NCBI RefSeq assembly: GCF_002934605.1
Contig: NZ_PTJC01000006.1
Location: 558,001 to 622,000 of the forward strand
Direction of reading: 5' to 3'
DNA: 64,000 nt
Source: Neolewinella xylanilytica
Lineage (GTDB): Bacteria > Bacteroidota > Bacteroidia > Chitinophagales > Saprospiraceae
Below the pieces are notes generated by a model. It ran no database searches. It was not told where the DNA came from and was given only the letters and a program-made list of their open reading frames with translations. This document shows, piece by piece, positions 12,359-59,040 of the stretch. Position 1 is the stretch's first letter. Each line of letters begins with the position of its first letter. Position numbers and translations under genes: made by a program.

Positions 12359-12399
12359 TTCCCTTCCCGTCCTTTCTCACCGAAAGACAAAGAAATATG

Positions 12400-12562
12400 A
12401 CGCTACCGGGCAGGTCTTCTGGCTCGCTCCACCCGGCCGTCGCCTTCCCGGATCGCTCCAGTGACGTAATGACGGCGGGCATATGGGGCTTACAGCTGCG
12501 GGGACAGCTCCGGATTCTCACCGGATTCCCTTTTCCCGATTGCGCGGCGAAGGTATACCGTA
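12400..12562 (-). promoter_or_regulatory. Cobalamin riboswitch
   Basis: Read on the minus strand, the conserved blocks occur in the right order: GGGAATCCGGTGAGAATCCG, GAGCTGTCCCCGCAGCTGTA, GTCACTGGAGCGATCCGGGA, AGGC, and finally GAGCCAGAAGACCTGCC. These are the hallmark AdoCbl-aptamer segments, including the B12-box. It begins just after the stop of the gene at 12570 and precedes btuB, which it should switch off on cobalamin binding. Exact ends are approximate. Confidence 0.95.
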
Positions 12563-12569
12563 TATCCGA

Positions 12570-13316
12570 TTAAAGACTTCCCGGCTGGGTGAAAAAGTCA
12601 ATCACCTGGGGATCGGCTTCCAGCGTCCGCTCGAAATCCTCGATCATACCCGCATTGTAGGCGTCGCCCGCCTGCCCGGAGCGGAGCCACTCCGGAGAAG
12701 CCATTAATTGCAAAAAGCGAAGGGAGCCGTCCCGTAACGGAGCGACCAGAATCGTCCGTCCCTGGTGGAGATCGAAATACTGCCGGGCTACGAGGGCCAG
12801 GTTAGCACCGGCGGCCAGGGAGAGTTGTACGTAGGACACGTCGCCTATTTCGGTGACCTGCTTCCCCGCCGCCAGGTAATGGGGATAATTACGGGAAATC
12901 ACCGAGCTCATGCGCTGATCCAGATGCACCGAGTCCGATAGCACATAGATTGTAAAGTAGGTATAATAGTACGCCAGGCTATCGTCCGTGGGGGCGGGTC
13001 GGTACTCATCGTAGGCGTAAGCGTAGGTGACTCCGTTGATCCGTCGGCCGGCAAGATCCAGGGAAGTAAGCCGGGAACTGACGTATCCCCAGTCGTATTC
13101 CGGGACGGGTGAGGCGAGGTTGACCAGCGGGGGAACTACCTCCAGAGAATCAAAGGAGAAGCTAAGATCCTCGGCGAGTCGCGGCATGTCCCACAGCGTG
13201 GAATCGGTTCGCTCCCGAGCGTAGCGGGCCGCATCGGCCTCCGTCCAGGGGGAGGGCGACTGTGCGTGAATGTGAGTGCCGAAAAGAACGGCGAGGCAAA
13301 AAAGTAGGATTCTCAT
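12570..13316 (-). CDS. Hypothetical exported protein
   Basis: 248 residues. The start at 13316 opens a signal peptide (MRILLFCLAVLFGTHIHAQ); a farther upstream ATG would add 12 non-hydrophobic residues. The mature part is soluble and rich in Tyr and Asp (YAYAYDEYRPAPTDDSLAYY), with an aliphatic segment about residues 145-170. I recognise no family motif. It ends only a few bases before the riboswitch, so read-through transcripts would cross the aptamer. Confidence 0.7.
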   Translation of the reverse strand: MRILLFCLAVLFGTHIHAQSPSPWTEADAARYARERTDSTLWDMPRLAEDLSFSFDSLEVVPPLVNLASPVPEYDWGYVSSRLTSLDLAGRRINGVTYAYAYDEYRPAPTDDSLAYYYTYFTIYVLSDSVHLDQRMSSVISRNYPHYLAAGKQVTEIGDVSYVQLSLAAGANLALVARQYFDLHQGRTILVAPLRDGSLRFLQLMASPEWLRSGQAGDAYNAGMIEDFERTLEADPQVIDFFTQPGSL

Positions 13317-34473: not shown

Positions 34474-34508
34474 GGAAGGACCTTTTCTCCGCCGATAAGC
34501 TCCCGTTT

Positions 34509-34580
34509 CGCGAGGGTGTCTGCCCTGATATCCCGACACCTTTGGGGGGGTGGCCTCAGGACGATGCATCCTGCACGGCA
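34509..34580 (-). pseudogene. Degenerate tRNA 3'-half copy (outermost)
   Basis: The strand carries recognisable remnants of the same unit as the array at 35198-35815: GCAGGATGCATCGTCCTGAG (anticodon-arm-like) and CACCCTCGCG (acceptor 3' side), with heavily altered sequence between. It adjoins the terminator of the next copy. The remaining bases back to the metF stop (34474-34508) show nothing. Confidence 0.5.
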
Positions 34581-34616
34581 CAAAAAAGGACTTCCCCGAT
34601 CCGGGAAAGTCCTTTG

Positions 34617-34715
34617 TAGCGCGAGGGTGACTCCCCCGATAGTTATCGGGGCCGACCTCAGGATTATAAATCCTGCGCTCTATATTCCCGATAGCTATCG
34701 AAAAGCTACAGTGCC
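34617..34715 (-). pseudogene. Full-length degenerate tRNA-Met copy with hairpin-replaced D- and T-loops
   Basis: Aligned by eye with the intact tRNA at 35851-35924, this copy keeps the anticodon stem-loop (stem CAGGA/TCCTG) but reads UAU instead of CAU. It also keeps the 3' acceptor strand and a following terminator at 34582-34616. The D-loop is replaced by a TTTCGATAGCTATCGGGAA-type palindrome (about 34685-34703) and the T-loop by CCCCGATAACTATCGGGG (34634-34651). Homology continues upstream into the tRNA leader, to about 34780. The promoter word is not conserved, so it is probably silent. Confidence 0.75.
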
Positions 34716-34822
34716 TAGAAACTTCACCGCAGGTCCCCTTGCCCCCCGCTTCGTAAAAGCAGTTGCAGAAATTAAGTGCCATCTCAATTATAGCAAACGC
34801 GACCAACAGTTCAAACGCCTGA

Positions 34823-35116
34823 TCAATGTTCCGCGTAGCGGGCTATAAGCTTTTCCCGCATCTCGAAGTAGGTTACCAAGTTCTGGATGTACACTTTGCT
34901 TTTCATACGCTTAATGTGACGTTCCACCCGGAGTGCCTGTAGACGTGTCGTGCAGACCATGCTCGACACAAGCATCCAGGGCTGTCCTTTCGCTGTAAAG
35001 GGGGTGGACTTATCCACGGAATTATGCTGTTGTAGACGCTCTTTGGGGGCTAGCGCTGTACTTCCAATGTAACAGCGATGGATGCGTTCGCTATACAAAA
35101 TGTAAACGTAAAACAA
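34823..35116 (-). CDS. GIY-YIG nuclease domain protein
   Basis: 97 residues, the size of a single GIY-YIG domain. FYVYILYSERIHRCYIGST supplies the GIY-like and YIG strands. KERLQQHN carries the conserved arginine, and ALRVERHIKRMKSK the metal-binding glutamate. Relatives are UPF0213/URI-like small nucleases common in Bacteroidota, with mostly unknown targets; no separate DNA-binding domain is present. It lies in the same orientation as, and inside, a series of tRNA-derived repeats, with a degenerate unit on its upstream side and a full-length pseudo-tRNA on its downstream side. Confidence 0.9.
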   Translation of the reverse strand: MFYVYILYSERIHRCYIGSTALAPKERLQQHNSVDKSTPFTAKGQPWMLVSSMVCTTRLQALRVERHIKRMKSKVYIQNLVTYFEMREKLIARYAEH

Positions 35117-35133
35117 CTACAAGGGAAATTTGG

Positions 35134-35197
35134 AAACGAGGGTAGTTCCGAAAACGGAGTCGAGCTGACCTCAATATAATGTATCCAGTAGGATCAA
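35134..35197 (-). pseudogene. Highly degenerate tRNA 3'-half copy beside the GIY-YIG gene
   Basis: On the plus strand ACGAGGGTAGTTCCGAAAAC and GCTGACCTCAATATAATGTA align in order with the array unit (CGAGGGTGACTC... CCGACCTCAGGATTATG). The T-loop position again carries a small hairpin (TTCCG-AAAA-CGGA). It continues directly into the first regular 103-bp unit. Confidence 0.5.
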
Positions 35198-35815
35198 TAA
35201 AAAGGACTTCCCCGATCTGGGAAAGTCCTTTGTAGCGCGAGGGTGACTCCCCCGATAGTTATCAGGGCCGACTTCAGGATTATGCATCCTGCGTCACATA
35301 AAAAAAGGACTTCCCCGATCTGGGAAAGTCCTTTGTAGCGCGAGGGTGACTCCCCCGATAGTTATCGGGGCCGACCTCAGAATTATGCATCCTGCGTTAC
35401 ATAAAAAAAGGACTTCCCCGATCTGGGAAAGTCCTTTGTAGCGCGAGGGTGACTCCCCCGATAGTTATCGGGGCCGACCTCAGAATTATGCATCCTGCGT
35501 TACATAAAAAAAGGACTTCCCCGATCTGGGAAAGTCCTTTGTAGCGCGAGGGTGACTCCCCCGATAGTTATCGGGGCCGACCTCAGAATTATGCATCCTG
35601 CGTTACATAAAAAAAGGACTTCCCCGATCTGGGAAAGTCCTTTGTAGCGCGAGGGTGACTCCCCCGATAGTTATCGGGGCCGACTTCAGGATTATGCATC
35701 CTGCGTCACATAAAAAAAGGACTTCCCCGATCTGGGAAAGTCCTTCGTAGCGCGAGGGTGACTCCCCCGATAGTTATCGGGGCCGACTTCAGGATTATGC
35801 ATCCTGCGTCACATA
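35198..35815 (-). repeat. Six tandem 103-bp units: tRNA-Met 3' half + palindrome + terminator
   Basis: The word GGACTTCCCC recurs at 35204, 35307, 35410, 35513, 35616 and 35719 (then at 35822 in the real tRNA's terminator), an exact 103-bp period. On the minus strand each unit reads anticodon arm (CAGGATGCATAATYCTG, still CAU), GAGGTCGG, palindrome CCCCGATAACTATCGGGG in place of the T-loop, GAGTCACCCTCGCGCTA (T-stem and acceptor 3' strand), then a terminator hairpin with a T7 run. The 5' half (acceptor 5' strand and D-arm) is absent. The units at 35307, 35410 and 35513 look identical, implying recent amplification. Confidence 0.93.
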
Positions 35816-35850
35816 AAAAAAGGACTTCCCCGATCTGGGAAAGTCCTTCG
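35814..35850 (-). terminator. Terminator of the intact tRNA-Met
   Basis: On the minus strand AAGGACTTTCCC pairs with GGGGAAGTCCTT around AGATC and is followed by T7. It is the parent of the terminators in the array units. Confidence 0.85.
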
Positions 35851-35924
35851 TAGCGCGAGGGTGACTCGAACACCCGACCTCAGGATTATGAATCCTGCGC
35901 TCTAACCGGCTGAGCTACCGCGCC
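35851..35924 (-). tRNA. tRNA-Met (CAU)
   Basis: A 74-nt cloverleaf on the minus strand. The acceptor GGCGCGG pairs with TCGCGCT (wobble at both ends), with discriminator A. The D-stem is GCTC/GAGC with GG in the loop, the anticodon stem CAGGA/TCCTG with loop TTCATAA (anticodon at 35888-35890), and the T-arm GGGTG-TTCGAGT-CACCC. CCA is not encoded. CAU could mean elongator Met or, after lysidine modification, Ile2; sequence alone does not settle this. It is the only intact tRNA in the window and the parent of the downstream array. Confidence 0.93.
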
Positions 35925-56810: not shown

Positions 56811-56834
56811 GGGGTAAAGGTAGCGAAGTAAAAT

Positions 56835-56875
56835 GCTGCCTCCGGCAGCGCCAGTACAAAGCTGCCTCCGGCAGC
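56835..56875. repeat. REP palindromes, left cluster (2 copies)
   Basis: Two perfect copies of GCTGCCTCCGGCAGC start at 56835 and 56861, a 26-bp spacing. Both are followed by CG and lie upstream of the RAYT gene. Confidence 0.9.
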
Positions 56876-56909
56876 GAATAGGAGAAAGGCCTTAATCAAA
56901 ACATAATAT

Positions 56910-57627: not shown

Positions 57628-57651
57628 GTAGTGGGGTTTCTGGGTTGTGTC

Positions 57652-57718
57652 GCTGCCGGAGGCAGCATTGTGCTTCCGCTGCCGGAGGCAGCATCCTACC
57701 ATCGCTACCGGAGGCAGC
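57652..57718. repeat. REP palindromes, right cluster (3 copies)
   Basis: GCTGCCGGAGGCAGC (the reverse complement of the left copies) occurs at 57652 and 57678, with a one-base variant GCTACCGGAGGCAGC at 57704. The period is again exactly 26 bp. They lie between the RAYT stop and the manC start. Confidence 0.9.
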
Positions 57719-58861: not shown

Positions 58862-59040
58862 GGCGGTTGTCGGGTTTTGGTTGTCGGAGGTCAGTTGTCG
58901 GGTTATGGATTTAGGTATTCAGTTGTCGGATGTCGGTTAGCGAAACTGGATAGCGGACAACTGAGTACCGACAACTGAGTACCGACAACTCAAAACCGAC
59001 AACCGACAACCGACAACCAAAAACCGACAACTCACCACAA
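58862..59040. repeat. Inverted array of the short word GTTGTCGG/CCGACAAC
   Basis: The left half contains several GTTGTCGG-like words and the right half many CCGACAAC words separated by TGAGTA, CAAAA or nothing. Together they form an extended imperfect hairpin of about 180 nt between convergent genes (manC and the 59048 gene). No coding sequence is seen. It could act as a bidirectional terminator. Confidence 0.8.

Follow-up and report, generated by a model that had tools for sequence, protein, structure and literature searches.

A GIY-YIG nuclease gene beside tRNA-Met in Neolewinella xylanilytica: evidence for a putative homing-type element family at tRNA genes of Bacteroidota

In the genome of Neolewinella xylanilytica, a short gene for a GIY-YIG nuclease is embedded in tRNA-like sequences, and the question is how such an arrangement arose. 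The first-pass annotation had described a block of tRNA-Met, repeats, nuclease gene and a decayed full-length tRNA copy in one orientation, and had likened it to an integrative or homing-like element with a duplicated tRNA target. The window analysed here is the whole stretch of 64,000 nt (GCF_002934605.1, NZ_PTJC01000006.1, positions 558,001-622,000, forward strand). ARAGORN, Rfam, Pfam and a search for repeat pairs confirmed the block, all parts of which lie on the minus strand (Table 1); according to ARAGORN and Rfam, tRNA-Met is the only tRNA of the window.

Table 1. Features of the tRNA-Met locus and other features in the window
Feature	Position	Strand	Remarks
tRNA-Met (CAT), intact, host gene used by the element	35850..35924	-	ARAGORN and Rfam
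Terminator immediately 3' of tRNA-Met	35815..35849	-	
Six tandem 103-bp units without ORF	35197..35814	-	
Palindrome CCCGATAACTATCGGG, example inside one 103-bp unit	35354..35369	.	
Other exact copies of CCCGATAACTATCGGG	35457-35472, 35560-35575, 35663-35678, 35766-35781		
Degenerate unit upstream of the nuclease ORF	35117..35196	-	
GIY-YIG nuclease ORF	34823..35116	-	single-domain, 97 aa, TTG start
Diverged copy of the tRNA-Met upstream (promoter) region	34718..34772	-	71% over 69 nt
Pseudo-tRNA, full-length	34616..34717	-	palindromes in T-loop (34635-34650) and D-loop (about 34687-34700)
Second terminator copy	34582..34615	-	81% to first terminator
Older, strongly decayed unit adjoining the convergent MTHFR gene	34504..34581	-	
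Cobalamin riboswitch	12392-12577	-	Rfam, 102.9 bits
Other tandem repeats	838-1025; 56827-56876; 57650-57718; 58956-59032		including 26-bp units with hairpin-like GCTGCC...GGCAGC

Each 103-bp unit consists of an ATG, an immediate stop codon, tRNA sequence from the anticodon stem on with the palindrome in its T-loop, and a terminator. The description of these repeats as tRNA-derived holds for the part beginning at the anticodon stem, but with their ATG, stop codon, T-loop palindrome and terminator they are not plain copies. We infer that they are deletion derivatives, which lost the ORF, kept start codon, pseudo-tRNA and terminator, and were then amplified. The block is not a product of chance, since its repeat pairs reach E values down to 0 and it is absent from the sister species G020, in which the coding end of MTHFR is 48 bp from the end of the tRNA gene, compared to 1380 bp in the window. 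The locus is best read as a partly decayed and amplified representative of a mobile element family in Bacteroidota.

The window ORF matches PF01541 (GIY-YIG) with an E value of 2.1e-12 over profile positions 1-74 of 78. Columns invariant in an alignment of 26 sequences are present in the window nuclease, among them Y5, Y16, R27, H31 and E65; we take these Y, Y, R, H and E columns to be the catalytic positions of the domain. Seg nucleases and I-TevI carry a separate DNA-binding region besides the catalytic domain; in the 97-aa protein, no second DNA-binding domain was detected, Pfam yielding PF01541 only and NCBIfam nothing. The nearest solved structures by sequence are UPF0213 proteins, followed by SLX1. 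The genome contains no further homologue of the gene. At E 1e-3, the window protein matched none of 50,697 phage records, and searches of phage and plasmid collections, in which distant relatives could escape such short queries, gave no match at the same threshold. Among 31 nuclease pairs with dS of 0.1-1.5, the median dN/dS was 0.21 and the maximum 0.49, values that show the ORF to be under purifying selection.

A nuclease homologue was detected in 28 of the 60 genomes searched, own genome included, and profile matches were obtained in 274 of 396 genomes of the class and in 192 of 296 genomes of the phylum, with at least 19 in one genome. A tRNA gene on the same strand ends less than 300 bp upstream in 71 of 88 class-sample loci, 19 of 29 relatives and 65 of 80 named Val-type loci; if only loci with at least 300 bp of upstream sequence are considered, the values are 71/83, 19/25 and 62/70, respectively. 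The same arrangement was found in 29 of 32 loci of a fourth sample drawn nearly entirely from other classes (28/30 with enough upstream sequence). The chance expectation for such proximity is roughly 0.2%, with about 45 tRNA genes in 4 Mb. Median gaps between tRNA and domain start are 49 bp in the class sample, 57 bp in the relatives and 46.5 bp in the named Val-type loci. None of these loci has an opposite-strand tRNA gene within 700 bp (0/88, 0/29 and 0/80, that is 0/197), and in the fourth sample no tRNA was found on that strand either. Homologues thus lie mostly beside tRNA genes, not away from them, and the architecture of the relatives bears out the resemblance to an integrative or homing-like element. 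The proposed target, tRNA-Met, is correct for the window but not exclusive: 16 isotype names were called beside these nucleases overall, some of which may be miscalled pseudo-tRNAs (four calls read '???'), and lineages tend to keep one isotype.

The composition of the samples has to be considered. The 88 class-sample loci comprise 28 of the 30 first fetched, without the own locus and a repeat of G017, and 60 picked by hand from the best matches listed, avoiding those near a contig start; because of this selection, low-scoring homologues and copies at contig ends are under-represented. The 80 named Val-type loci are the best 80 of 151. Samples overlap, as exemplified by the named records L130/L070, L168/L198 and L121/L074, which are the same loci as in numbered genomes, and the 32 loci of the fourth sample include G691 twice (L280, L303). 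The adjacency counts keep loci without a called tRNA in the denominators, whereas counts of tRNA copies, trees, hairpin positions and terminators include only ORFs with a called tRNA. ARAGORN called a tRNA in 23 of the 29 relative loci (L002-L030); of the other six, four have less than 300 bp of upstream sequence, and L010 and L014 have 1500 bp free of tRNA. Likewise, 5 of the 17 class-sample loci without a tRNA within 300 bp upstream have less than 300 bp of sequence there. Many homologues are located close to a contig end, at a distance of a few hundred bases at most, as would be expected if the assemblies had broken at tandem copies or repeats. Three homologues (L134, L143, L167) are on contigs filed as Kuenenia, Limnohabitans and Bifidobacterium metagenome bins, which are probably misbinned Bacteroidota.

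The region around these ORFs follows a common plan. For 156 ORFs a tRNA was called and at least 120 bp of downstream sequence was available; downstream of 126 of them a copy of the 3' part of the tRNA was detected, a score reached by none of five shuffles each. The displaced copy typically corresponds to the last 30-33 nt of the tRNA and is directly preceded by a hairpin in 97 of these cases, the TCCCG...CGGGA form occurring at that position in 65/126. According to alignments of up to four sequences per isotype, the hairpin takes the place of the anticodon arm in Ala, Val, Arg, Lys and some Asp and Pro loci, and of part of the anticodon arm or the variable loop in some Met, Asp and Asn loci. 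It replaces the T-loop in the Met locus of the window, in Thr and in one Phe locus, and the D-arm in one Phe locus. At several loci, the stop codon of the ORF lies in sequence derived from the tRNA and is either a TAG of the tRNA or part of the hairpin. Among 142 ORFs with a tRNA less than 130 bp away, 134 show a terminator-like hairpin with a T run between tRNA and ORF. The sequence TAnnTTTG, presumably the -7 box of Bacteroidota, occurs in the spacer between tRNA and ORF in one of the 142, and in the 60 bp upstream of the tRNA in 58. Because the spacer nearly always has such a hairpin and hardly ever this box, the nuclease ORF is probably expressed by read-through of the tRNA terminator.

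Tandem amplification is not restricted to the window; for example, five identical units of 315 bp are present in G691. By eye, decayed and mostly hairpin-bearing tRNA-like fragments were also seen upstream of the intact tRNA in L070, L082, L084, L092 and L012, which does not fit a single insertion. The locus of G877 (L360, about 880-1600) contains two nuclease ORFs and displaced halves of tRNA-Asn with as many as three hairpins, each at a different position of the tRNA.

The tRNA-Met site could be followed through the genus. A match covering the gene was obtained in 20 of 21 genomes, missing only in G009, which is 55% complete. The nuclease is present at this site in three genomes (G000, the own genome with the window, G016 and G017), while G019 and G015 have hairpin-bearing tRNA copies without a nuclease match. 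The remaining 15 have neither nuclease nor hairpin copy in the 260 bp examined, with a possible remnant in G001. From the end of homology on the tRNA side to the point where homology resumes, filled and empty sites measure 1377 versus 45 bp (G000/G020), about 795 versus 45 bp (G016/G012) and 470 versus 212 bp (G017/G004). In G017, nuclease and displaced tRNA copy are present but no array of the 103-bp type. With regard to the suggestion that a nuclease without repeats at an orthologous site would speak against the element, G017 does speak against the array, which is therefore secondary, but not against the tRNA copy, which is kept. The orientation of neighbouring genes varies: tRNA-Met is convergent to MTHFR in G000, G001, G020 and G007 and follows it with the same orientation in G016, G012, G004, G017, G011 and G013, while no MTHFR was found in the stretch around tRNA-Met in G003. 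The tRNA gene seems to have been inverted within the genus.

The direction of the event should be visible in the terminators. If tRNA and terminator had simply been duplicated, the two terminators should be alike; among 90 full-copy ORFs they are similar in 53 and no more alike than shuffled sequences in 28. Terminator-like structures are present at both positions in 22 of these 28, among which L070/L130 and L168/L198 are counted double. At the tRNA-Met site, the terminators of 13 empty species are mostly dissimilar to each other. In these strongly diverged sequences, the proximal terminator of G016 is 66% and the distal one 55% identical to that of the empty G012 (shuffled maximum 54), a weak indication opposite to a displacement of the native terminator.

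Three sets from two other genera, in which the filled and empty sites compared are homologous (syntenic) on both sides, show a different picture. In the first set, at tRNA-Ala in genus g107, G443 and G765 have distal terminators with 68-79% identity to those of five empty species (G153, G796, G733, G120, G790), while the proximal ones reach 48-63% (shuffled mean 51, maximum 64). In the second set, from the same genus, identity to the terminator of the empty G623 is 92 and 94% for the distal terminators of G413 and G699 and 49% for the proximal ones. The displaced 30 nt of G413 are identical to G623, and its intact tRNA has a paired change in the T-stem and an encoded CCA, both absent in G623 and in the displaced half. 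Between G413 and G699, identity is 97.8% for the elements, 79% for the upstream and 83% for the downstream flanks, which points to transfer between species; G443 and G765 show no such excess (element 79%, flanks 84 and 67%). In the third set, at tRNA-Asn in genus g70, the distal terminator of G440 shares 75 and 78% identity with its counterparts in G880 and G837, the proximal one 46 and 49%. G877 is identical to the empty G880 over 150 bp after the displaced half, distal terminator included, and 97.5% identical over 528 bp upstream. At its proximal terminator, G877 instead agrees to 93.9% with the native terminator of G870 and G869 (shuffled maximum 61), a donor footprint. The 30-nt tRNA half alone supports displacement only in G413 and is neutral in G765; in G443 and G699 it is the intact half that comes closer to the empty sites, perhaps because the displaced one has decayed.

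As judged by the terminators, these comparisons show in six genomes of two genera a displaced native 3' end and an element-borne 3' end that completes the tRNA. The combination of a foreign proximal and a native distal terminator in G413, G699, G440 and G877, less sharp in G443 and G765, is the footprint that transfer with co-conversion of donor flanks would leave. Duplication of the target, as proposed in the first-pass annotation, is correct in that there is a second tRNA copy, but in these cases a new 3' half and terminator were apparently brought in and the native ones displaced.

A tree of 87 nucleases, taken from the window and the numbered genomes with one per locus and covering 31 families, requires 28 changes of tRNA isotype, with a least possible number of 13 and a mean of 59.9 in 200 shuffles (lowest 55). 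For the host family, 63 changes are required on the same tree, with a minimum of 30 and a shuffled mean of 70.0 (lowest 64). In a quickly built tree of 104 rows, the isotype changed 31 times, compared to a shuffled mean of 68.7. These trees are based on few alignment columns and contain many weak forks, and switches do exist, with Arg, Pro and Lys rows within the Val clade. The counts show nuclease lineages that largely track the tRNA isotype and hardly the host family. Vertically inherited, ancient isotype-specific paralogues could be a partial source of this pattern.

Palindromes also occur outside the element. In the own genome, CCCGATARYTATCGGG is found at 23 sites (reversed control 0), six of them in this locus and three in rnpB (L264). 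Within rnpB, a CCCGA...TCGGG palindrome is present in 9 of 20 genes of the genus (L264, L255, L256, L258, L260, L265, L268, L269, L271), and alignment places the palindromes at the tips of stem-loops. Across 396 genomes, the number of TCCCGAN2-9TCGGGA sequences rises with the number of nucleases (rho 0.53; rho 0.0007 for the reversed pattern), a correlation that includes the elements' own hairpins and ignores kinship of the hosts; medians are 7 in genomes with and 1 in genomes without the nuclease. Of 122 genomes without a nuclease match, 11 still contain at least ten palindromes. Another tRNA-like fragment with a palindrome was noticed by eye in the own genome (C1:931864, L107).

Taken together, a family of homing-type elements that hijacks tRNA genes in Bacteroidota, supplying a replacement 3' half and displacing the native one, is regarded as the probable explanation. 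Such an element would consist of a replacement 3' part of one isotype, a terminator, an ORF for a single-domain GIY-YIG nuclease and usually a hairpin. In the cases named above, the comparisons show it lying inside the tRNA gene, its own 3' part completing the intact tRNA and the native terminator displaced behind a second, hairpin-bearing tRNA 3' part. On a chromosome free of the element, the nuclease would cut the tRNA gene. A copy with the element would then serve as repair template through tRNA homology on either side, and the element would be installed along with the donor 3' half and terminator. The hairpin would mark, and probably destroy, the cut site in the displaced half. Among the points against homing, the intact tRNA would be expected to be attacked as well wherever the element is present, and local duplication would likewise produce the similar terminators in 53/90. 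As a tentative and rather doubtful extension, the hairpins could be scars or shields left by break repair at nuclease cut sites, with lineage-specific sites, and the dispersed palindromes, those at rnpB stem-loop tips included, off-target or mobile copies. Each lineage would then cut its tRNA in the anticodon arm, variable loop, T-loop or D-arm, and several lineages could leave several hairpins in one displaced half, as seen in G877.

These readings have to be weighed against others. A local duplication of tRNA, terminator and a neighbouring nuclease gene, followed by decay of the second tRNA, would make the nuclease a passenger or a repair enzyme for hairpins. Identical tandem units such as those in G691, the array of the window and the majority of full-copy ORFs with similar terminators are in line with this idea, but the 28 ORFs with unrelated terminators, 22 of which have two terminator-like structures, are not. 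Nor is the finding that the distal and not the proximal terminator resembles that of empty sisters in G413, G699, G443, G765, G440 and G877, or the isotype fidelity over 31 host families. Plain tandem duplication of the tRNA is rejected on the filled/empty terminator comparisons, which disfavour local duplication; it is considered quite improbable. Alternatively, mobility could reside in the hairpin itself, with another enzyme, for instance a REP-associated tyrosine transposase, moving it and the GIY-YIG gene travelling alongside. The 23 genomic sites, six of them in the locus, the replaced tips of rnpB stem-loops and the palindrome-rich genomes without a nuclease match would agree with it, but the joint rise of palindrome and nuclease numbers, own hairpins and kinship included, and the tendency of the hairpin position within the tRNA to go with the isotype make this reading unlikely.

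Transfer RNA genes commonly serve as integration sites, and the nuclease gene might be a passenger at such hot spots, a remnant of genomic islands. As a general account, this appears highly improbable in view of the constant micro-architecture, with the tRNA on the same strand, median gaps of 46-57 bp, the ORF near or reaching into the displaced half, and opposite-strand tRNA genes missing within 700 bp in all 197 loci. Moreover, there is no room for an integrase or recombinase in the 470-bp insert of G017, because the 299-bp ORF occupies most of it; integrase-type tRNA islands were rejected on this ground, island debris on all of these. A group I intron in the tRNA gene was also considered and dismissed: at gathering thresholds, Rfam reported only the tRNA and the cobalamin riboswitch in the window, and the tRNA is contiguous.

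If homing at tRNA genes is the correct reading, a nuclease of about 90 residues seems to hijack and partly rebuild tRNA genes, and in the genus of the window the targeted tRNA has a single match per genome outside arrays. The family would constitute a natural set of nucleases tracking tRNA isotypes, whose target, and perhaps cut site, can be read from the genome. Unusual tRNA fragments in Bacteroidota, as well as tandem arrays and breaks in assemblies, may also find their explanation in this family. Should the hairpins be scars, selfish elements hijacking tRNA genes throughout the phylum would be the source of a REP family.

Among the matches listed for open-licence PMC articles, there was no report of such an element in bacterial chromosomes, which is weak evidence of absence. 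Features of several known systems can be compared. REP palindromes are likewise short and dispersed, some of them within genes, according to passages of two articles (PMC3733652, PMC12306157) in which the term GIY-YIG is absent; in contrast, the hairpins of Bacteroidota are tied to displaced tRNA halves and a GIY-YIG gene. Stand-alone Slx1-like domains of prokaryotes have been described (PMC1564403). UPF0213 proteins and SLX1 share the catalytic domain with the nuclease, and UPF0213 is likewise single-domain in size, but SLX1 is a subunit of a structure-specific endonuclease, and the passages on these proteins report neither linkage to tRNA genes nor mobility (PMC1564403).

SegB of T-even phages, a free-standing GIY-YIG homing endonuclease with homologues in phages of several phyla, Bacteroidota included, also adjoins tRNA genes, and its cleavage peaks inside them, as stated in parts of PMC13096335. 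There too, a unit of tRNA and segB is amplified in tandem, with microhomology between the 3' end of segB and the 5' end of a tRNA (PMC13096335). Unlike the elements discussed here, SegB belongs to phage genomes, and replacement of a tRNA 3' half and a hairpin are not described in these parts (PMC13096335). The Bacteroidota nuclease may be placed as working like the Seg type, with cleavage as a prediction; membership is not claimed, because a second DNA-binding domain was not found.

Gene hybrids formed by mobile ORFs in fungal mitochondria, described in passages of PMC3630166 for atp6 of Allomyces macrogynus and for atp6, atp9, cox2 and nad3 of Glomus, are alike in another respect. There, the host gene is completed by a 3' end of foreign origin with an endonuclease ORF behind it, and the native 3' end is displaced downstream and matches element-free relatives (PMC3630166). 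The targets in these passages are mitochondrial protein genes, and the ORF of the atp6 example is of the LAGLIDADG type (PMC3630166). The Bacteroidota element, in contrast, is found at tRNA genes of bacterial chromosomes, its GIY-YIG ORF is minimal, and the displaced half contains a hairpin.
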